Source: Maribacter sp.
Lineage (GTDB): Bacteria; Bacteroidota; Bacteroidia; Flavobacteriales; Flavobacteriaceae
Direction: 5' to 3'
Assembly: GCF_016744255.1 (NCBI RefSeq)
Contig: NZ_JADGES010000012.1
Location: forward strand, 1 to 47,816
Length of the DNA: 47,816 nucleotides
Part shown: positions 39,364 to 47,816 of the stretch, piece after piece
How the letters are laid out: every line of letters starts with the position of its first letter
How positions within the stretch are numbered: position 1 is the stretch's first letter
The notes under the pieces: model-generated
Seen by the model: only the letters and a program-made list of their open reading frames with translations
Told to the model about the DNA's origin: nothing
Databases searched by the model: none
Position numbers and translations under genes: made by a program

Positions 39364-39386
39364 TAAGCCGGCTTAAAGCCGGCTTA
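39364..39386. terminator. GC-rich palindrome at convergent gene ends
   Basis: TAAGCCGGCTT and AAGCCGGCTTA, separated by a single A, form both an inverted and a direct repeat. It lies 20 bp after the + strand stop and 10 bp from the minus-strand stop. On the minus strand it leads into a T-rich stretch (TTGTTTT), on the plus strand into A. Probably a terminator for the aromatic operon. Confidence 0.5.
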
Positions 39387-39395
39387 AAAAAATTT

Positions 39396-40478
39396 CTAAT
39401 TATTTAGAATTTTCTCTTGATGATTAATCGACTCTTGGTGTATTGCTTTAAACATTTTTAAAACAAACTCCTCACTAAGTCCTTTAGACTCTCCTTCTAA
39501 AATCATAGCTCCAAGAATCTGATTCCAACGATTGCTTTGTAATACTGCAACGTTTTTCTCTTTCTTTAGCTTACCAATACCATCAGATATTTTCATACGT
39601 TTTCCTAAAGCTTCTATTAACTGACCATCGATAACATCTATCTGTGCTCGTAAATTAGATAGTTCCTTAGTATAACCCGCTTCAGGATCATCTTCTTTTC
39701 TGATTTTTAAATCCTTCATGATTTGCACCAATTTTGGAGGCGTTACCTGTTGTGCCGCATCACTCCATGCGTTTTCTGGATCGAAATGGGTTTCTATCAT
39801 TAGACCATCAAAATTAAGATCTAATGCTGTTTGACAAACGTCAAAAATCATGTCTCTATTTCCTGTAATATGAGACGGATCATTAATTAATGGTAAATCT
39901 GGAAACCTAGTTTGGAATTCAATAGCCAATTGCCATTCCGGAGTGTTTCTATATTTTGTTTTTTCATACGTAGAAAAACCTCTATGAATTGCTCCCAATT
40001 TTTTAATACCTGCTGTATGTAAACGCTCAATACCACCTAACCATAAGGCTAAATCTGGATTTACAGGGTTTTTTACCAATACTATTTTATCTGTACCTGC
40101 TAAAGCATCTGCAATTTCTTGCATAATAAATGGGCTCACGGTAGATCGTGCTCCTATCCACAATAAATCCACATCATGTTCTAATGCTAGTTTTACATGG
40201 GCAGCATTGGCAACTTCTGTACAGGTCTTCATTCCTGTTTCTTCTTTTACTTTCTGTAGCCACTTTAAACCTAAGGCTCCAACACCTTCAAACATTCCAG
40301 GGCGGGTTCTTGGCTTCCATATTCCTGCTCTAAAATAGCTTACATCTGTATCTTTTAATTCATGAGCAATTTTTAACACTTGCTCTTCTGTTTCAGCACT
40401 ACATGGCCCTGCTATTACTAGTGGGTGATTTAGCTGCATATCATCCAACCATGTTCTCATTTCTTTTGAATTTTCCAT
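39396..40478 (-). CDS. Bifunctional DAHP synthase / chorismate mutase
   Basis: A fusion of the first shikimate-pathway enzyme (PEP plus erythrose-4-phosphate to DAHP) with an AroQ-type chorismate mutase. It has 360 residues. DAHP synthase covers about 1-260: VIAGPCSAETEEQVL, YFRAGIWKPRTRPGMFEG and DPSHITGNRDM are typical of the KDO8P synthase-like type I-beta family. Chorismate mutase covers about 268-360 (LSNLRAQIDVIDGQLIEALGKRMKIS). The fused mutase domain commonly gives feedback control by prephenate. It is last in the operon, 3 bp after tyrA. This arrangement channels carbon both into and out of the common pathway. Confidence 0.95.
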   Translation of the reverse strand: MENSKEMRTWLDDMQLNHPLVIAGPCSAETEEQVLKIAHELKDTDVSYFRAGIWKPRTRPGMFEGVGALGLKWLQKVKEETGMKTCTEVANAAHVKLALEHDVDLLWIGARSTVSPFIMQEIADALAGTDKIVLVKNPVNPDLALWLGGIERLHTAGIKKLGAIHRGFSTYEKTKYRNTPEWQLAIEFQTRFPDLPLINDPSHITGNRDMIFDVCQTALDLNFDGLMIETHFDPENAWSDAAQQVTPPKLVQIMKDLKIRKEDDPEAGYTKELSNLRAQIDVIDGQLIEALGKRMKISDGIGKLKKEKNVAVLQSNRWNQILGAMILEGESKGLSEEFVLKMFKAIHQESINHQEKILNN

Positions 40479-40481
40479 TTT

Positions 40482-41345
40482 CTACTTATTCTTATTTAGT
40501 GGTATTCCGTTTAATATTTCTTTAATTTTATTGGTATTATTCATTTCATTATAAATGCCTTCATAATCATCAGCAAGAAGCATTTTTTTAAATTCTGTTA
40601 GGTTATTAATATAACCATCTAAAGTCTCCACCACATTTTCTTTATTTTGTTTAAAAATGGGTGTCCACATGGCTGGCGAGCTTTTTGCTAAACGCACGGT
40701 ACTTTCAAACCCACTCCCCGCCATGTCAAAAATATCACGTTCATTCTTTTCTTTCTCAATAACGGTCTTTCCTAACATAAAGGAACTTATGTGTGACAAA
40801 TGTGATACGTAAGCTATATGTTTATCATGTGCTTCTGGGTTCATATAGCGAATACGCATACCCAAAATTTTGAAAAGTTCTAATGCTCTTTCTTGTAATT
40901 TAAAGGCTGTTTTTTCTACCTCACAAATTATATTCGTTTTACCTTCATACAACCCATTAATTGCTGCCGATGGCCCTGAGAATTCGGTTCCCGAAATAGG
41001 GTGACATGCCAAAAAATTTCTTCTTTTAGGATGATTTCCTAGCTCTTTACATATTTTCACTTTCGTAGAACCAGCATCAAAAACCACACAATCGTCATTA
41101 ATAACATCTAGTATTTTAGGCAACTCGGTTATCATAGCATCTACAGGGATACTCACAACAACAACATCTGCAATAGACAATTGTGTGTAATCTGCTTTCT
41201 CATCTATAATTCCCAAAGATAGAGCCTCCTCTATATGCACCTCACTAGCATCTATACCATAAATCGTTGTGTTAGGAATAAGACGTTTTACATCTTTTAC
41301 TATAGACCCCCCGATTAAACCAATACCTATTACAAATACATTCAT
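40482..41345 (-). CDS. tyrA: Prephenate dehydrogenase TyrA
   Basis: Oxidative decarboxylation of prephenate to 4-hydroxyphenylpyruvate, the tyrosine branch. It has 287 residues. The Rossmann loop is GIGLIGGSIVKD (7-18). Further motifs are CHPISGTEFSGP and SHLSHISSFMLGK, the conserved His-containing catalytic segments. There is no fused mutase or ACT domain; the mutase is on the next gene. It lies 5 bp after the aminotransferase. Confidence 0.95.
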   Translation of the reverse strand: MNVFVIGIGLIGGSIVKDVKRLIPNTTIYGIDASEVHIEEALSLGIIDEKADYTQLSIADVVVVSIPVDAMITELPKILDVINDDCVVFDAGSTKVKICKELGNHPKRRNFLACHPISGTEFSGPSAAINGLYEGKTNIICEVEKTAFKLQERALELFKILGMRIRYMNPEAHDKHIAYVSHLSHISSFMLGKTVIEKEKNERDIFDMAGSGFESTVRLAKSSPAMWTPIFKQNKENVVETLDGYINNLTEFKKMLLADDYEGIYNEMNNTNKIKEILNGIPLNKNK

Positions 41346-41350
41346 TTTTT

Positions 41351-42496
41351 TTAAAATCTAGCTATTGCTTCTTTAATTTTATCTTCTTTTACACAAAGTG
41401 AAAAACGTATATATCCTTCTCCATTACTTCCAAATACGGTTCCCGGAGCTATAAATATATTTTTATCATACAACACTTCATCGACAAACTCTTCGGATGA
41501 TTTATCGTCATTGGGTAGCTTTGCCCAAACGAACATACCGACTGCATTTTTATCATATACACAATTTAATTTATCGGCCAATTGAAACATTAAATTTCTT
41601 CTAGAAGTATACACTTCATCTAACGAATTAAACCAATCATCTCCACTATTTAATGCTGCAATTGCTCCTTTTTGGATGCCATAAAACATACCAGAATCCA
41701 TATTACTTTTCACCTTTAAAATGGCATTTATATGCGTATCGCTACCTAAAACCATTCCTACACGCCAACCAGCCATATTAAAGGTCTTGCTTAAAGAATT
41801 AAGTTCTAAAACTACATCCTTAGCATTATTTAAAGATAAAATACTCGTTGGGTTTTTACTTAATACAAAACTATATGGGTTATCATTAACCAATAATATA
41901 TCGTTGGCTTTTGCAAAAGCTATAAGTTCTTGCAATTTTTCCTTAGTTGCTGTTGCCCCAGTTGGCATATGCGGATAACTTACCCACATTATTTTAACTT
42001 TAGATAAATCTTGTTTCGCCAAATCTTCTAAATCTGGAAACCAATCATTTTCGGCTGTTAGATTATATTCTTTTGCTACTGCCCCTACTAATTTAGTTAC
42101 CGAAGTATAGGTTGGGTATCCTGGGTTTGGAATCAATGCTTCATCACCAGGATTTAAAAAAGCCATACTAATATGCATTATACCTTCTTTAGACCCCATC
42201 AATGGTAATACTTCATTTGTAGGATTTAGAGAAACGCAAAACTTGTTTTTATAAAACTCCGTTATAGCTTCTCGTAATTCTGGCAACCCCTGATAACTTT
42301 GGTACTGATGCGCGCCTGGATCACTTAAAGATTTTGTAACCGCTTGTATAACTTCTTTAGAAGGTGCCAAATCTGGGCTACCTATACCCATATTAATAAT
42401 AGGCCTACCATCTGAAATTAACCCTCGTACTTCTCGTAATTTCTTAGAGAAATAGTATTCCTCTACTGTTTTTAATCTATCTGCAGTGGTAATCAT
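41351..42496 (-). CDS. Class I/II PLP-dependent aminotransferase, probably aromatic
   Basis: A 381-residue fold-type I aminotransferase. The PLP lysine is in LNSLSKTFNMAGWRVG. Other motifs are INMGIGSPDL at the N-terminus, NPGYPTYTSV, MWVSYPHMPTG (position of the usual PNNPTG motif, here modified) and IRFSLC near the end with the carboxylate-binding Arg. Its place between pheA and tyrA suggests that it converts phenylpyruvate and 4-hydroxyphenylpyruvate to Phe and Tyr; this is context inference. Its start overlaps the pheA stop by 4 bp. Confidence 0.92.
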   Translation of the reverse strand: MITTADRLKTVEEYYFSKKLREVRGLISDGRPIINMGIGSPDLAPSKEVIQAVTKSLSDPGAHQYQSYQGLPELREAITEFYKNKFCVSLNPTNEVLPLMGSKEGIMHISMAFLNPGDEALIPNPGYPTYTSVTKLVGAVAKEYNLTAENDWFPDLEDLAKQDLSKVKIMWVSYPHMPTGATATKEKLQELIAFAKANDILLVNDNPYSFVLSKNPTSILSLNNAKDVVLELNSLSKTFNMAGWRVGMVLGSDTHINAILKVKSNMDSGMFYGIQKGAIAALNSGDDWFNSLDEVYTSRRNLMFQLADKLNCVYDKNAVGMFVWAKLPNDDKSSEEFVDEVLYDKNIFIAPGTVFGSNGEGYIRFSLCVKEDKIKEAIARF

Positions 42497-43320
42497 ACTC
42501 TTGCATTTTTATATTCTCCTAATACTTTAAAATCTTCAGACATAATTTCTAAAAGTGCTTTTGACTTTACAAAATCATCATACGCATTAAAGGTTACATC
42601 TACAAAAAAAGCATATTTCCAAGGAGTTTCTATAATGGGTAAAGACTGTATTTTAGTTAAGCTTAAATTACAATCACTCATTACATTTAATACTGCCGCT
42701 AGACTTCCTCTTTTATGATCCGTTACAAAACGAATCGATGCTTTATCGATTTCTTCTTTAGGTAATTCTTTATTTGTTGTTTTTACAATTATAAATCTGG
42801 TAGAATTATTTTTTATTGTCTGTATTTCTGGTGTAATAATTTCCAAATTATATAATTCTGCTGCTACCTTTGGTGCTATGGCTGCGACATTCTTTAAAGA
42901 ATGTTCTTGAATTTGCTTTGCTGTTTCTGCAGTATCTACATCTTCTACTAATTTAATATGAGGGTACGCTTTAAAATAATCTTTACACTGTAATAAAGCC
43001 ATTGGATGAGAACGCACCTCATCTATTTGATCTATAGTTTGCCCTTTATTCACCATAAGATTGTGGTGTATATTTAAATAATACTCCCCTATTATATGCA
43101 AATTATTATGGTAAACTAAAGCGTAATTCGGAATTATAGAGCCTGCAATAGAATTCTCTATTGCCATAATTCCTTTATCTGCCTTTCCTGTAAGTAATTG
43201 ATCTACTAAAAAATCAAAAGACATACATTCTAATAAGTTAACGGAATCTCCAAAATAGTCTTTTGCTACTTGGTGATGGTTAGATCCTTTTATTCCTTGT
43301 ATTGCTATATTTAATTTCAT
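42493..43320 (-). CDS. pheA: Prephenate dehydratase PheA (with ACT domain)
   Basis: Converts prephenate to phenylpyruvate, the phenylalanine branch. From the ATG at 43320 it has 275 residues; a TTG three codons upstream (43329) is less likely. The dehydratase domain has IAIQGIKGSNHHQVAKDYF, MAIENSIAGSI, the HHNLM and AAIAPKVAAELYNLEI blocks, and the catalytic TRF triplet (NNSTRFIIV). A C-terminal ACT domain (about 198-275, RGSLAAVLNVMSDCNLSLTKIQSLPI) is the usual phenylalanine sensor. First structural gene of the operon, 49 nt after the attenuator T tract. Confidence 0.95.
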   Translation of the reverse strand: MKLNIAIQGIKGSNHHQVAKDYFGDSVNLLECMSFDFLVDQLLTGKADKGIMAIENSIAGSIIPNYALVYHNNLHIIGEYYLNIHHNLMVNKGQTIDQIDEVRSHPMALLQCKDYFKAYPHIKLVEDVDTAETAKQIQEHSLKNVAAIAPKVAAELYNLEIITPEIQTIKNNSTRFIIVKTTNKELPKEEIDKASIRFVTDHKRGSLAAVLNVMSDCNLSLTKIQSLPIIETPWKYAFFVDVTFNAYDDFVKSKALLEIMSEDFKVLGEYKNARV

Positions 43321-43369
43321 TTGCCCCAAATTACTACTCTCTTAAGTAGCTTATTATTCACTTTTTTTC

Positions 43370-43400
43370 AAAAAAAAAGTTCCGATTTTATCGGAACTTT
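43370..43400 (-). terminator. Attenuator terminator in front of pheA
   Basis: On the minus strand AAAGTTCCGAT (43400-43390), loop AAA, then ATCGGAACTTT (43386-43376), a perfect 11-bp stem, followed by an unbroken run of nine T (43378-43370). It lies between the leader peptide stop (43426) and pheA, in the same direction. It is therefore placed to stop transcription before the structural genes. The left arm can pair instead with 43439-43433. Confidence 0.85.
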
Positions 43401-43425
43401 ACTCTATCTATATTTTAATAAATAT

Positions 43426-43497
43426 CTAGAACAGCTCCGCACTTCTCTTAAAAAAGAAGTAAAAGGTAAAACCATTCCAGAAATATTGCTTTGTCAT
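43426..43497 (-). CDS. Aromatic-rich leader peptide of the pheA operon
   Basis: A 23-codon open frame, ATG at 43497 to TAG at 43426, upstream of pheA on the same strand. It reads MTKQYFWNGF then TFYFFFKRSAELF: seven Phe, two Tyr, one Trp, so 10 of 23 residues are aromatic, with a Tyr-Phe-Phe-Phe run at 13-16. This is the composition of classical attenuator leader peptides such as enterobacterial PheL. Its last codons (GCG GAG CTG) overlap the antiterminator strand. Translation to the stop would therefore mask that strand and favour termination, while stalling at the Phe run would leave it free. Confidence 0.8.
   Translation of the reverse strand: MTKQYFWNGFTFYFFFKRSAELF
43433..43480 (-). promoter_or_regulatory. 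Pause hairpin and antiterminator strand of the attenuator
   Basis: On the minus strand ACTTCT (43460-43455) and AGAAGT (43446-43441) form a stem over the Phe/Lys codons, equivalent to the 1:2 pause hairpin. Just downstream, CGGAGCT (43439-43433) can pair with AGTTCCG (43398-43392), the left arm of the terminator, over 7 bp with one G-T wobble. The two pairings of that arm are mutually exclusive, as required for an attenuator. Confidence 0.65.
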
Positions 43498-43517
43498 TTT
43501 TTATTGTAATACGATGG

Positions 43518-43525
43518 CTAAAGTA
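43518..43525 (-). promoter_or_regulatory. Possible -7 element of the phe operon
   Basis: Minus-strand TACTTTAG has one mismatch to TAnnTTTG, about 21 bp upstream of the leader ATG. It would start transcription near 43513. No proper -33 is seen. Tentative. Confidence 0.35.
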
Positions 43526-43716
43526 ATAATTAAATTCAATAATTAAAGCTTTACATCGAATTTTTACTTATTTGTAAATATTTAAGTGAATAAGCTACAA
43601 TATTTAAGCACTTAACTACTATTATTGCGAATAACCTAAAAATGAAAAATACCCCCAAAGAATAGGTTCTTTATATTAAAAATATAATTTTACTTTATTT
43701 TTTATCGAATACGTTA
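43526..43716. other. AT-rich region upstream of the phe leader
   Basis: Rest of the 396-bp gap between the serine hydrolase stop and pheA. It contains an inverted repeat TTAAGTG/CACTTAA (arms near 43583 and 43610) and no ORF or RNA gene that I can support. It may hold the phe promoter or activator sites, and the 3' end of the serine hydrolase transcript. Confidence 0.4.
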
Positions 43717-44805
43717 TTATGACAAAGGAATAGCTAACCTTTCTATTATGAGACTTATCACCTCGTCTAACTCTTCTTGAATATTGGGGTTGGTACAATT
43801 TGTTAAAATAGAAAATACCAATTGCTCTTTTGGATACACATAAAAATTAGAATATCCGCCAACGCCATTTCCTACGTGCCCAAAATACTTTCTTCCCTTT
43901 TTATCTTGGCTTACTTGCCAACCTAACCCGTAATATGTTGGCTTACCATTGATAGATTCTGATGTTAAAAACTGTGTTAGCATATCTTTTTGCAAGACTT
44001 GTTTCGCTAAAAAAGCTTGACCAAAATTTGCTATATCTACCGCTGTAGAAAGAAAACCTCCTCCCGCCAACTTATAATAATTATTTACAGGAATCGACAA
44101 TCTAAACCCTAATCGATTTTTGGAATAAAAAGAAGTAGCATTTGGATAGCTATTCCCGGGAATTTCTGCTTCCGTATTACACATCCCTAATGGTTGCAAT
44201 ACTTTTTCTTGTACATAATTCTCAAAAGGAATTCCACTAGCTTCTTGCATCGCAAGTGAAACCAAAACCCAATCGAAGCTAGTATATAAATAATCTGTTC
44301 CTGGCTTAAAAAGCAAAGGATCCTCTTTAAAAATCGAAATACTATCCTTTATCGAATACTCTTTATTTAGTCCATACTCTATTCCTTTATAACTTCTAAT
44401 TCCTGCAGTGTGGCTAGCTAATTGGCGCATGGTAAAATCCCATTTTTTCTTTGGATAATACGGAACATAATCATAGAAAGATGCATCTAAATCTATAATC
44501 CCATCTGCTACCATATATGCTAAAGCTGTAGCCGCAATAGGTTTAGATACACTGGCTATTCTAAATTGTGTTTTTTTAGGATCTATTATTATTTTCTCCT
44601 CTATATCTGCATAACCATAGCTTTTTTGGAATATCGTTTTTCCTTTCTCCAGAACCGTTATTGCTACCCCTGGTATTTGCTTTTCTGCAATTAACCTTTG
44701 TAATAGAACATCTGCCTTTACTAATCCTTGTAACTGGGTATCCTCTCCAATTATTTTATTAGATAAAAATATTTTTTTTAAATAAGCCGTAATAGGGTTT
44801 TTCAT
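43717..44805 (-). CDS. Serine hydrolase of the class C beta-lactamase family
   Basis: A 362-residue penicillin-recognising serine hydrolase. The nucleophile motif is S85-V-S-K88, the second element Y174-T-S176 (Ser where class C enzymes have Asn) and the third H310-V-G312 in GHVGNGVGGYSN. It resembles esterase or D-aminopeptidase relatives more than true beta-lactamases. No signal peptide is evident at the start (MKNPITAYLKKIF), so location is uncertain. It is 16 bp downstream of the GIN-domain gene and the likely last gene of that operon. Confidence 0.88.
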   Translation of the reverse strand: MKNPITAYLKKIFLSNKIIGEDTQLQGLVKADVLLQRLIAEKQIPGVAITVLEKGKTIFQKSYGYADIEEKIIIDPKKTQFRIASVSKPIAATALAYMVADGIIDLDASFYDYVPYYPKKKWDFTMRQLASHTAGIRSYKGIEYGLNKEYSIKDSISIFKEDPLLFKPGTDYLYTSFDWVLVSLAMQEASGIPFENYVQEKVLQPLGMCNTEAEIPGNSYPNATSFYSKNRLGFRLSIPVNNYYKLAGGGFLSTAVDIANFGQAFLAKQVLQKDMLTQFLTSESINGKPTYYGLGWQVSQDKKGRKYFGHVGNGVGGYSNFYVYPKEQLVFSILTNCTNPNIQEELDEVISLIIERLAIPLS

Positions 44806-44821
44806 GTATGCCTATTCCTTT

Positions 44822-45577
44822 TTAATCTTCAAAAATTAGCTTGCCAGTATATAAGGTTTCTACAGAAACGCTAGGAGGCTTATTAAAACTCCTGACATCT
44901 CCTGTTCCTCTTAGTACACCTGTTAGTGTTTCTTCTGGATGTATCAACAAATCATTAGAGCCTCTATGGTTAAAAATAATGCTCTTTGCCATTAGGTTTT
45001 CTGTTTCTATCCTAGAATCTCCAGCAGCTATCATTACATTCAAATTTTTAGTACTGCCACTTAGTTTAAAATAAGAATTACCATTTACTACCACAGAAAT
45101 ACTATTGGCATTTAAAGTTAAAATAAACTCGCCATCTGTTGTTTCCGCCTCTGGTTCGCCATAGCTTTCGGAAAGCAACGTTAAACTATTGTAAGATAAT
45201 ATGCCTTCACTGCGAATTGGCCAACTTGTACTACTTCTTATTTCTTTAATATTAGGAGCGGTCACATAAATTTTGGTTACACCGTAATCTCTAACAAAAT
45301 TGCAATCGTTTTCATCTCTTAGAACTAACCTACCATCTTCTACAACAGCAGTTACTTCTTCTCTTAAAAATTCACCTGTTTCTATCTCTACCTTCTGCTC
45401 TCCTTCTTTTAGAATAAGTTCTATATTTTCAAAAACTGTAATTTTATTAAAATCTGCAAGTGTAACTTCTTCTCTGCTAATATCACCAGCTGCTTGGAAA
45501 CAATCTGGAGCACTTGTACTAGTACATGCCAGGTTTAAAACCAACAATAAAAAGAATATGTGTTTTATTTTTTTCAC
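44822..45577 (-). CDS. GIN-domain (DUF2807) lipoprotein
   Basis: A 251-residue lipoprotein. The signal peptide ends in LNLAC with Cys18 as lipidation site. The mature part begins REEVTLADFNKITVFENIELILKEGEQKVEIETGE in separable blocks, the opening pattern of the putative auto-transporter adhesin head GIN domain. A right-handed beta-helix-like run of short strands follows (LTLNANSISVVVNGNSYFKLSG). The function is not established; members are surface or periplasmic proteins frequent in Bacteroidota. It lies 9 bp after the PagL-like gene. Confidence 0.88.
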   Translation of the reverse strand: MKKIKHIFFLLLVLNLACTSTSAPDCFQAAGDISREEVTLADFNKITVFENIELILKEGEQKVEIETGEFLREEVTAVVEDGRLVLRDENDCNFVRDYGVTKIYVTAPNIKEIRSSTSWPIRSEGILSYNSLTLLSESYGEPEAETTDGEFILTLNANSISVVVNGNSYFKLSGSTKNLNVMIAAGDSRIETENLMAKSIIFNHRGSNDLLIHPEETLTGVLRGTGDVRSFNKPPSVSVETLYTGKLIFED

Positions 45578-45586
45578 TTCTATATT

Positions 45587-46687
45587 TTAAAACCGAATTC
45601 CAACTCCAAACTCAATAGCTTCTGCGTTAGCTGCATGAGATTTTAAAGCAACCTCAGCAAAAAATTTATCTCCTAAATATCTTTTTAACCCCAATCTATT
45701 ATACATTCTGCCTTCAAAATCGAAAGGATAATACACATAATATCCTAATTGGGTAGTGATAGATAGTTTATTAATAAATAATTCGTGCCCTAGAAACAAA
45801 CCTATACGCTTGTAATCTGTATCTGCGGCTACATTATTTTCAGGAAATGAAATACTTTGAAAACGTATTAACTCTTTTAAAAATCTGGAAAAGAAAATAT
45901 CCGTTCCAAAATGTAAAGCGCTTTTTCTTCCAATACGTTTATCTGCATAAGCTGATAGTATATAAAAAGGGTATTGGCCCATTCCCTCTACATCGCTACT
46001 ATTAATTCCTGTTCTTAGAGCCACATTATATTTTACAGGTTCTGTGTATTTTACTTTTTCTACATCTACCACGTAAGTCCTTTCTTTACCACCATCTAAA
46101 GCGTAAACTAATCCTACATTAAAGGCTAGCGTATTGGTAGATGTGTTTGGCGACTTAAAACTACCATTAGAATAATGTATTAGTGAAAGCCCTGCTTTAA
46201 AACCCAAACCCTTATAAATATTCTCTTTATGATAGTTTAGCATAAAATAAACAGATGCCATAACAGAAGTTCCATAAGCATTGTTTCTAAAATTAGTCTC
46301 CTTATCATAAGGATTGGTATTATAGGACACCCCTTGACCAAACCTCAGTTGTAAATTTCGCTTTAAATAATAAAAATTATAGTGTAGAAAAACACCATAA
46401 TGCTCCCCCAGAGTACTCTTATTCATATTCTGATAGATGAAAGAATACCCCACATCTGGGTAACCATAAGCTTGTTCCCAAGCCTCTTCCCCAAATGTTT
46501 TTTTATTTAAGCTTAAAATAAATCCTTCTGGATAGTCCGTTATTAAATGCGAAATGCTTGGATTATGCTTAAGCACGGAGCCATAAAATTGACTAGCATC
46601 CATGGTATACATTTTTGCAGATTTACCTTCTTGCGACAAACAAGAAGAAAAAGATAATACTGCTACTAAAAAGAAAATTAGTCTCAT
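45587..46687 (-). CDS. PagL-like acyloxyacyl hydrolase (lipid A deacylase family)
   Basis: A 366-residue outer-membrane beta-barrel protein. The N-terminus (MRLIFFLVAVLSFSSCLSQ) is a signal peptide, possibly with a lipobox Cys16. The strand-rich body contains LSLIHYSNGSFKSPNTSTNT (168-186), which matches the PagL active-site pattern with His171 and Ser173 and the following PN..TN. The C-terminus ends in EFGVGIRF, a terminal Phe suited to barrel insertion. It would remove an acyl chain from lipid A. It is longer than enterobacterial PagL and first in a three-gene set with the GIN lipoprotein and serine hydrolase. Confidence 0.82.
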   Translation of the reverse strand: MRLIFFLVAVLSFSSCLSQEGKSAKMYTMDASQFYGSVLKHNPSISHLITDYPEGFILSLNKKTFGEEAWEQAYGYPDVGYSFIYQNMNKSTLGEHYGVFLHYNFYYLKRNLQLRFGQGVSYNTNPYDKETNFRNNAYGTSVMASVYFMLNYHKENIYKGLGFKAGLSLIHYSNGSFKSPNTSTNTLAFNVGLVYALDGGKERTYVVDVEKVKYTEPVKYNVALRTGINSSDVEGMGQYPFYILSAYADKRIGRKSALHFGTDIFFSRFLKELIRFQSISFPENNVAADTDYKRIGLFLGHELFINKLSITTQLGYYVYYPFDFEGRMYNRLGLKRYLGDKFFAEVALKSHAANAEAIEFGVGIRF

Positions 46688-46693
46688 AAACTA

Positions 46694-46701
46694 CAAAAAT
46701 A
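46694..46701 (-). promoter_or_regulatory. Possible -7 element of the PagL-like operon
   Basis: Minus-strand TATTTTTG fits TAnnTTTG but lies only 6 bp upstream of the ATG, which would give an almost leaderless transcript. No -33 is seen. Tentative. Confidence 0.3.
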
Positions 46702-46751
46702 GGGATTTGAAACCAGTCTCCTTTCCTTTGTATTTAACATAAAAATATTTA

Positions 46752-47705
46752 TTAAAATAATTCTTTTGCAATAGAATATACGTTATCCGATTTGCCCATA
46801 GAATAATAATGCAATACAGGAACACCAGCTTCTTTTAACTCTTTAGACTGTTGTATTGCCCACTCTATACCAACCTGTCTAACAGCCTTATTATTCTCGC
46901 AGCAATCTACTGCATCAATTAAATTTTGCGGTAAATCTATCTTAAATACTTGTGGCAATATCTGTAGATGTCTTTTAACTGCAAGAGGTTTAATTCCTGG
47001 TATAATTGGCACATTAATTCCTATGGCCTTAGCAGCTTCTACAAACTGAAAATACTTCTGATTATCAAAAAACATTTGTGTAACCACATAATCTGCACCA
47101 GCATCTACCTTTTCTTTTAATCGTTTTAAATCCGATTTTAAAGATGGTGCCTCCAAGTGTTTTTCTGGATACCCAGCCACACCAATACAGAAATTAGCAT
47201 TATTCTCCATAGGAGTATCATCATGTAAATACTTACCTGTATTTAAATCTTGTATCTGAGAAACTAAACTAGCTGCATAGGTATGTCCTCCCTTTGCAGG
47301 CGTAAAATATTGCTCCTCTCGCATAGCATCACCACGCAACGCCATAACATTATCTATTCCTAAATATTGACAATCTACAAGAACATATTCTGTTTCTTCC
47401 TTAGTAAACCCACCACAAAGAACATGAGGTACCGTATCTACATTATACTTATGTTTTATAGATGCGCAAATACCTACCGTTCCTGGACGCATACGTGTAA
47501 TTTGTTTATCTAACAAACCAGACTTATTAATATAAACATATTCTTCCCTAGACGTAGTAACATCAATAAAAGGAGGTTTAAACTCCATTAATGGATCTAT
47601 ATTATTGTATAACTCCTGAATGTTTTTCCCTTTAACTGGCGGAACAATCTCAAAAGAAAATAAGGTCTTTCCCTTAGCATTTACTATATGATCTGTTACT
47701 TTCAT
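46752..47705 (-). CDS. metF: 5,10-methylenetetrahydrofolate reductase MetF
   Basis: FAD-dependent reduction of methylene-THF to methyl-THF, the methyl donor for methionine synthase. It has 317 residues. Opening motif GKTLFSFEIVPPVKGKN, then PPFIDVTTSREEY, the CGGFTKEETEYVL and NVMALRGDAMREE blocks, GADYVVTQMFFDNQKYFQFVEAA and PIIPGIKPL, all typical of MetF. No methionine synthase gene is in the window; in relatives it often lies upstream, beyond the right edge. Confidence 0.97.
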   Translation of the reverse strand: MKVTDHIVNAKGKTLFSFEIVPPVKGKNIQELYNNIDPLMEFKPPFIDVTTSREEYVYINKSGLLDKQITRMRPGTVGICASIKHKYNVDTVPHVLCGGFTKEETEYVLVDCQYLGIDNVMALRGDAMREEQYFTPAKGGHTYAASLVSQIQDLNTGKYLHDDTPMENNANFCIGVAGYPEKHLEAPSLKSDLKRLKEKVDAGADYVVTQMFFDNQKYFQFVEAAKAIGINVPIIPGIKPLAVKRHLQILPQVFKIDLPQNLIDAVDCCENNKAVRQVGIEWAIQQSKELKEAGVPVLHYYSMGKSDNVYSIAKELF

Positions 47706-47734
47706 GTCCTTATCTAATTTTTTATTTTTTCTTT

Positions 47735-47816
47735 ATTGGGGCGTATTACGGGCTATACGTTATATCTTTTTTTTATAATTTCTATTGTTCAAAAAAAAAA
47801 AAAAGGATACCACTAC
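47735..47816. repeat. Left part of a probable flavobacterial intergenic repeat
   Basis: Non-coding end of the window. It carries GGGGCG, ACGGGCTATACG, ATATC plus a T run, an AT-rich centre, then a long A run and GGATACCACTAC at the edge. The order resembles a hairpin-like intergenic element I recall from flavobacterial genomes, whose right end would continue past the edge. The 14-A homopolymer is also a possible sequencing-length error site. Confidence 0.4.

Follow-up and report, generated by a model that had tools for sequence, protein, structure and literature searches.

A putative ribosome-mediated transcription attenuator upstream of the pheA operon in Maribacter and other Bacteroidia

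What kind of element occupies the short region upstream of pheA in Maribacter, where an open reading frame rich in aromatic codons is followed by a hairpin and a run of T, and how might it set the expression of the genes behind it? An earlier note on the window (the whole analyzed stretch of 47,816 nucleotides) had proposed ribosome-mediated transcription attenuation. The conservation of the leader, the covariation of its helices and the distribution of the element support that reading, to which we give a probability of roughly 94%. The promoter box and the operon are laid out as follows:

43518..43525, minus strand: sigma-A-like −7 box TACTTTAG, Bacteroidota consensus TAnnTTTG
42493..43320, minus strand: pheA, prephenate dehydratase, ATG at 43320, first gene of the operon
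41351..42496, minus strand: class I/II aminotransferase, overlapping pheA by 4 nt
40482..41345, minus strand: tyrA, prephenate dehydrogenase (NF006307, 390.7 bits, cut-off 295)
39396..40478, minus strand: DAHP synthase/chorismate mutase, last gene of the operon
39364..39386, minus strand: terminator-like hairpin 3′ of the last operon gene

The four genes that the earlier note had placed behind the leader are indeed there, each overlapping the next or lying a few bases from it, and their order and shared strand recur in 75 of 75 relatives for which sufficient sequence is available; the best NCBIfam models for pheA are prephenate dehydratases, at scores below their curated cut-offs. The operon yields phenylalanine, tyrosine and their shared precursor, in keeping with a leader in which Phe and Tyr codons predominate. 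Transcription is predicted to start at about 43513, which would give a 5′ UTR of about 16 nt. The box in front of this start follows the Bacteroidota sigma-A type consensus (PMC9723704) and stands 20 nt before the leader ATG in the window, as compared to a median of 18 nt across relatives. A TAnnTT[T/A]G box lies 8–40 nt before the leader ATG in 85 of 92 close, 37 of 40 divergent and 13 of 26 distant upstream regions, versus 5.9% of shuffles. No sigma-70 promoter (−35/−10) was found close before the leader, as is expected of Bacteroidota, and the TAnnTTTG-type box was taken for the analysis instead. Farther upstream, at 43717–44805 on the minus strand, lies a gene whose matches, all below curated cut-offs, are to serine hydrolases of the class C beta-lactamase/AmpH type.

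Between the promoter box and pheA, the leader carries a reading frame and a set of overlapping, mutually complementary segments:

43497..43426, minus strand: leader ORF, 23 codons and a stop, encoding MTKQYFWNGFTFYFFFKRSAELF; ATG at 43497, stop ending at 43426
43472..43480, minus strand: strand 1, outer protector arm CTGGAATGG, codons 6–9; partner 43426–43434
43450..43461, minus strand: control codons Tyr13-Phe14-Phe15-Phe16 (TAC TTC TTT TTT), from codon statistics
43453–43461, minus strand: left arm of the inner protector hairpin
43433..43439, minus strand: strand 2, CGGAGCT, the putative antiterminator strand within the last leader codons
43426..43434, minus strand: 3′ arm of the outer protector, CTGTTCTAG, overlapping strand 2 and the stop codon
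43405..43424, minus strand: small A+T-rich hairpin between strands 2 and 3, inside the antiterminator helix
43390..43400, minus strand: strand 3, left arm of the terminator and alternative partner of strand 2
43370..43386, minus strand: strand 4 (ATCGGAACTTT, 43376–43386) and the nine-T tract of the intrinsic terminator

Is this frame read by ribosomes? As the earlier note had counted them, 10 of the 23 translated residues are aromatic (7 Phe, 2 Tyr and 1 Trp), with its Tyr-Phe-Phe-Phe run falling at codons 13–16, and when the 396-nt upstream region was shuffled 3000 times with its dinucleotides preserved, an equally aromatic ORF arose just once. Across 83 distinct 23-codon leaders, Phe14 is TTC without exception, and where one of the ten aromatic positions departs from its most frequent codon, the residue stays aromatic in 127 of 139 cases, against the roughly 26% expected if bases changed at random. 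Where leaders of relatives differ in length they do so in whole-codon steps, and the ORF is always open. Judging by sequence, such aromatic-to-aromatic codon changes and whole-codon steps indicate a translated frame in which selection acts on the aromatic residues. A plus-strand ORF that runs antisense over the leader (43321–43509) was set aside as a gene, since the conserved features, namely the aromatic codons, the helices and the promoter box, all belong to the minus strand.

The terminator, AAAGTTCCGAT-AAA-ATCGGAACTTT at 43400–43376 on the minus strand, is the perfect 11-bp hairpin with nine T (43378–43370) that had been described, and lies 55 nt before pheA. Its left arm can alternatively pair with strand 2, again as anticipated: CGGAGCT (43439–43433) matches AGTTCCG (43398–43392) in 7 bp that include one G-U pair. 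The pause hairpin drawn by the earlier note over the Phe codons is present in the predicted fold, where it forms the inner part of a longer protector whose second, outer helix had gone unnoticed; there, CTGGAACGG (codons 6–9) pairs with CTGTTCTAG (the two final codons plus the stop), which ties up part of the antiterminator strand. The naked leader is predicted to fold into the hairpin over the Tyr/Phe codons plus the terminator, at −37 kcal/mol (z −4.0), and none of 200 shuffles folds as low. The hallmarks of an attenuator found here comprise a leader ORF rich in end-product codons and conserved as codons, an intrinsic terminator between this leader and the first structural gene, a strand that by pairing and covariation competes for the terminator left arm, and a protector hairpin over the control codons.

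How strongly do the strands depend on one another? By lineage, strand 2 reads CGGGACT, CGGAACT, CGAGAC, CAGGACT, GAGGC, GCCGGG, AGGCGGGA or AGAGCGG, and for each form the left arm of the terminator, and hence its right arm, is altered to match; this joint change of strand 2 and both terminator arms is as predicted for mutually exclusive hairpins. The complementarity between strands 2 and 3 averages 17.79 for true partners and 14.96 for swapped ones, with 15.38 the best of 200 permutations, which ignore relatedness, while in the closest group, where these strands are nearly invariant, it is 17.81 versus 17.24 permuted. Pairs were counted in an alignment of 43 sequences that leaves out the Flavobacterium-type leaders, since their strand 2 falls one column out of register when the two are combined. 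Here, 96.0% of strand 2–strand 3 cells are paired, with two-sided changes in four of the seven antiterminator pairs; in the terminator, 99.4% are paired, with two-sided changes in four of eight pairs. Sliding the partner by one column lowers the paired cells to 48–63%. The protector is 88.8% paired with 25 two-sided cells, its duplexes weaken when partners are swapped, and the third base of codon 7 (TGG, TAT, TTT or TTC) covaries with that of codon 23 as GC, UA, UG and CG. In the Flavobacterium type, as read by eye, the protector role is apparently taken by another sequence, TTATACATA with TATGTATAA. The earlier note had called for exactly this comparison, of leader codons and compensatory stem changes in relatives, and both were found.

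We infer from this anatomy a scheme of ribosome stalling, transcription–translation coupling and amino acid response. Transcription would begin some 16 nt ahead of the leader's ATG, with a ribosome translating the leader behind RNA polymerase. With sufficient Phe-tRNA and Tyr-tRNA, it would reach the stop codon and cover strand 2, leaving strands 3 and 4 to form the terminator and switch the operon off. When charged Phe- or Tyr-tRNA is scarce, the ribosome would stall within codons 10–16 and break the protector helices, whereupon strand 2 would pair with strand 3, no terminator would form and the operon would be transcribed. If the leader is not translated at all, the protector helices (1:2) would hold strand 2 and transcription would stop. 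Folding simulations, which assume a ribosome footprint reaching about 13 nt ahead of the A site, give the stalled and the terminated state: with a stall at Tyr13 the best fold is the antiterminator enclosing the A+T-rich hairpin (−14.1 kcal/mol), with a stall at Trp7 it is the antiterminator plus the inner hairpin (−21.5 kcal/mol), and with the ribosome at the stop codon the terminator alone remains (−13.6 kcal/mol). Once strand 4 is made, the terminator is predicted to be more stable than the antiterminator; thus, the choice must be kinetic, like that of E. coli trp.

Could the hairpins instead be chosen without a ribosome? Covarying helices in a structured element would equally suit a switch in which a protein or small molecule binds the leader RNA and picks the hairpin, the ORF being incidental, but an ORF that is never interrupted, changes length in whole-codon steps and has its aromatic residues selected as codons would not, and the element has no match among Rfam families. 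Elsewhere in the same genome, moreover, operons carry leaders rich in their own amino acid (HHHFH before hisG, IIII before ilvD and WWW before trpE), and we regard a translation-independent switch as very unlikely. Alternatively, the ORF may encode a small hydrophobic peptide with a function of its own that lies by chance before an ordinary terminator, as its short, Phe-rich and strongly conserved product might suggest. However, residues outside the aromatic cluster drift among relatives, and strand 2 keeps its bases and not its amino acids: at codon 20, 82 of 83 leaders have G as the last base, and the encoded residue is Thr, Ala, Met, Lys, Arg or Val. Combined with the covariation of strand 2 and the terminator across lineages, this makes a functional peptide barely credible. 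An ORF that is itself a chance occurrence before an ordinary terminator is rejected in view of conservation and covariation.

A different possibility is that the hairpin merely ends transcripts from the upstream gene, which lies on the same strand, and that pheA has its own promoter downstream of the hairpin; intergenic terminators are, after all, common. Against this, nearly all sampled Flavobacteriaceae have the promoter box some 20 nt ahead of the leader, the upstream neighbor is kept in 28 of 75 loci versus the leader in all of them, and the complementarity of strand 2 would be left unexplained, all of which makes such an arrangement scarcely tenable. Attenuation by a translating ribosome remains the reading that we prefer.

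How far does the element extend among relatives? A genome scan and a family search yielded 109 close loci besides the window's own, of which one lies on a contig that ends too early, leaving 108 readable loci that correspond to about 90 distinct sequences because several species occur in both search sets. An aromatic leader of type MTKQYFWNGFYFYFFFKRGTGLL/F precedes pheA by about 130–230 nt in all 108. It is also present in 40 of 40 further Flavobacteriaceae (62–77% PheA identity), in diverged form (e.g., MTVYYTYFNNWFYFFFSKRNEALYV), and in 26 of 38 more distant or divergent genomes, 25 of 33 from within the class and 1 of 5 from elsewhere; as the leader was chosen in this distant set as the most aromatic short ORF, its single cases are weaker than the pattern. 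The predicted attenuator is conserved over a large share of the class Bacteroidia. The single occurrence outside the class, in the same phylum, has the leader MKNNYYTGFGFYYFYLTRPSCRD and a terminator before pheA; it may reflect vertical descent, transfer or convergence.

The 12 genomes of the distant set in which no leader was recognized comprise four outside the class and eight within it: three of one genus, two single-contig genomes of 0.6 Mb, two of a family of the same order (31–34% PheA identity) and one other. In the 0.6-Mb genomes, which belong to the same order, pheA is present and neither an aromatic leader nor a terminator was found upstream of it; their size suggests reduced endosymbionts, and the absent leader is consistent with a loss of regulation in reduced genomes. 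The three genomes of one genus have pheA at 48–49% identity without the leader, although another genus of the same family has it. A covariance model built from close and medium relatives gives the copy in the window a score of 116 bits. With E limited to 0.01, it has a match in 152 of the 199 Flavobacteriaceae genomes of a panel with nearly one per genus, a count that misses diverged leaders and may include a few chance hits among the weakest. Among the 104 listed matches with a known pheA position, 100 lie less than 1 kb upstream on the same strand, at a median gap of about 33 nt. Four extra matches of 39–45 bits beside other genes look like chance terminator matches.

How does this element relate to known systems? 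In E. coli, the pheA attenuator (pheL; Rfam Phe_leader) consists of a Phe-rich leader, a protector, an antiterminator and a terminator before pheA. The Maribacter element shares this layout, yet differs in its mixed Phe/Tyr leader, its joint Phe and Tyr operon, its TAnnTTTG-type promoter and its occurrence in a phylum that lacks Shine-Dalgarno initiation. A search of 40000–47816 with Rfam models including Phe_leader returned no match up to E = 1 except Flavo-1, and shared descent with the E. coli attenuator is not indicated. That exception, a Flavo-1 RNA (RF01705) at 47742–47816 on the minus strand (42.6 bits, just above the gathering score), is cut by the window end and adjoins a methylenetetrahydrofolate reductase gene. 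The trp, his, ilv and thr attenuators of Proteobacteria and Actinobacteria follow the same logic of end-product codons, alternative hairpins and an intrinsic terminator, but their amino acids and sequences are different. A 2010 cross-phylum survey by Lopatovskaya et al. may hold related predictions for Bacteroidetes. Leader-peptide systems had been shown only in Proteobacteria and Actinobacteria, with Firmicutes then added (Naville & Gautheret, 2010; PMC2965389), and the B. thetaiotaomicron transcriptome includes sORFs reminiscent of leader peptides (PMC7366714). Whether such an element had been described for Flavobacteriaceae, a point the earlier note left open, can be answered in outline: Guerin et al. 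(2021; PMC9723704) report that a structured, transcribed 5′ element without an Rfam match lies upstream of pheA in Flavobacterium psychrophilum and is present in other Flavobacteriaceae, and they see strong clues that operons for amino acids are preceded by attenuators of the leader-peptide kind. Given the same gene, the same family and the family-wide conservation, the F. psychrophilum element is very probably the same as that of Maribacter; for pheA, the main text of that study describes neither the leader sequence nor the anatomy of the strands, and no covariation. The mechanism is known and classic in E. coli, and the pheA element has already been reported in outline in Flavobacteriaceae. 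In view of these reports, what we add is modest: an explicit four-strand anatomy, covariation in all helices, the spread over much of the class, and a clear prediction on how transcription and translation are coupled in this phylum.

Which amino acids would the leader sense? The earlier note's suggestion of more than one aromatic aminoacyl-tRNA is plausible for two of the three, as sensing of both Phe and Tyr fits. The case for Trp is weaker: of 155 distinct leaders, 100 contain Trp, and Tyr or Phe also occurs at that position. The aromatic codons form two clusters, a 5′ one at codons 5–7 (YFW, YFY or YFF) in or beside the outer protector helix and a 3′ one at codons 10–16 over the inner helix. 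It is possible, if on balance doubtful, that the leader is a two-site sensor in which a stall at either cluster frees strand 2, thereby reading Phe, Tyr and, in lineages with Trp7, also Trp. If so, one leader would gauge supply on behalf of a pathway in which the first enzyme is common to all three aromatics.

The logic may also extend beyond pheA. In the same genome, hisG is preceded by a His-rich leader MKNTNTHHHFHTGSQAR and a terminator AACCCGTTTGA-GAAA-TCAAACGGGTT (G000:C42:16900-18200), ilvD by a leader MKINNFLINVIIIIPCRG and a 12-bp terminator (G000:C37:10800-11750), and a trpE-like gene by a leader MRNKRTNTWWWNNLRKTT and a terminator AAAGGCTTGTC-ATCAC-GACAAGCCTTT (upstream of G000:C97:1585). 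An aspartokinase gene (thrA-like, 818-aa open frame; G000:C131:37940, minus strand) follows a Thr/Ile-rich leader MYDKITDILFSSLTNGTTTIGTITPLG with a TACTTTTG box upstream; no intrinsic terminator was found, and this leader may work by another route. No strict terminator was found in the pyrB upstream region. From their sequences, a common control logic is suggested for the Phe/Tyr, His, Ile/Val and Trp operons of one genome, and the pheA element itself would form a new RNA family.

Ribosome-mediated attenuation requires a ribosome close behind RNA polymerase, and Bacteroidota initiate translation without Shine-Dalgarno sequences; to our knowledge, transcription–translation coupling has been little tested in this phylum. 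Retention of an attenuator over much of Bacteroidia, with concerted change in three of its strands, would imply selection for such coupling, and the element could serve as a simple reporter for measuring it in Bacteroidota.
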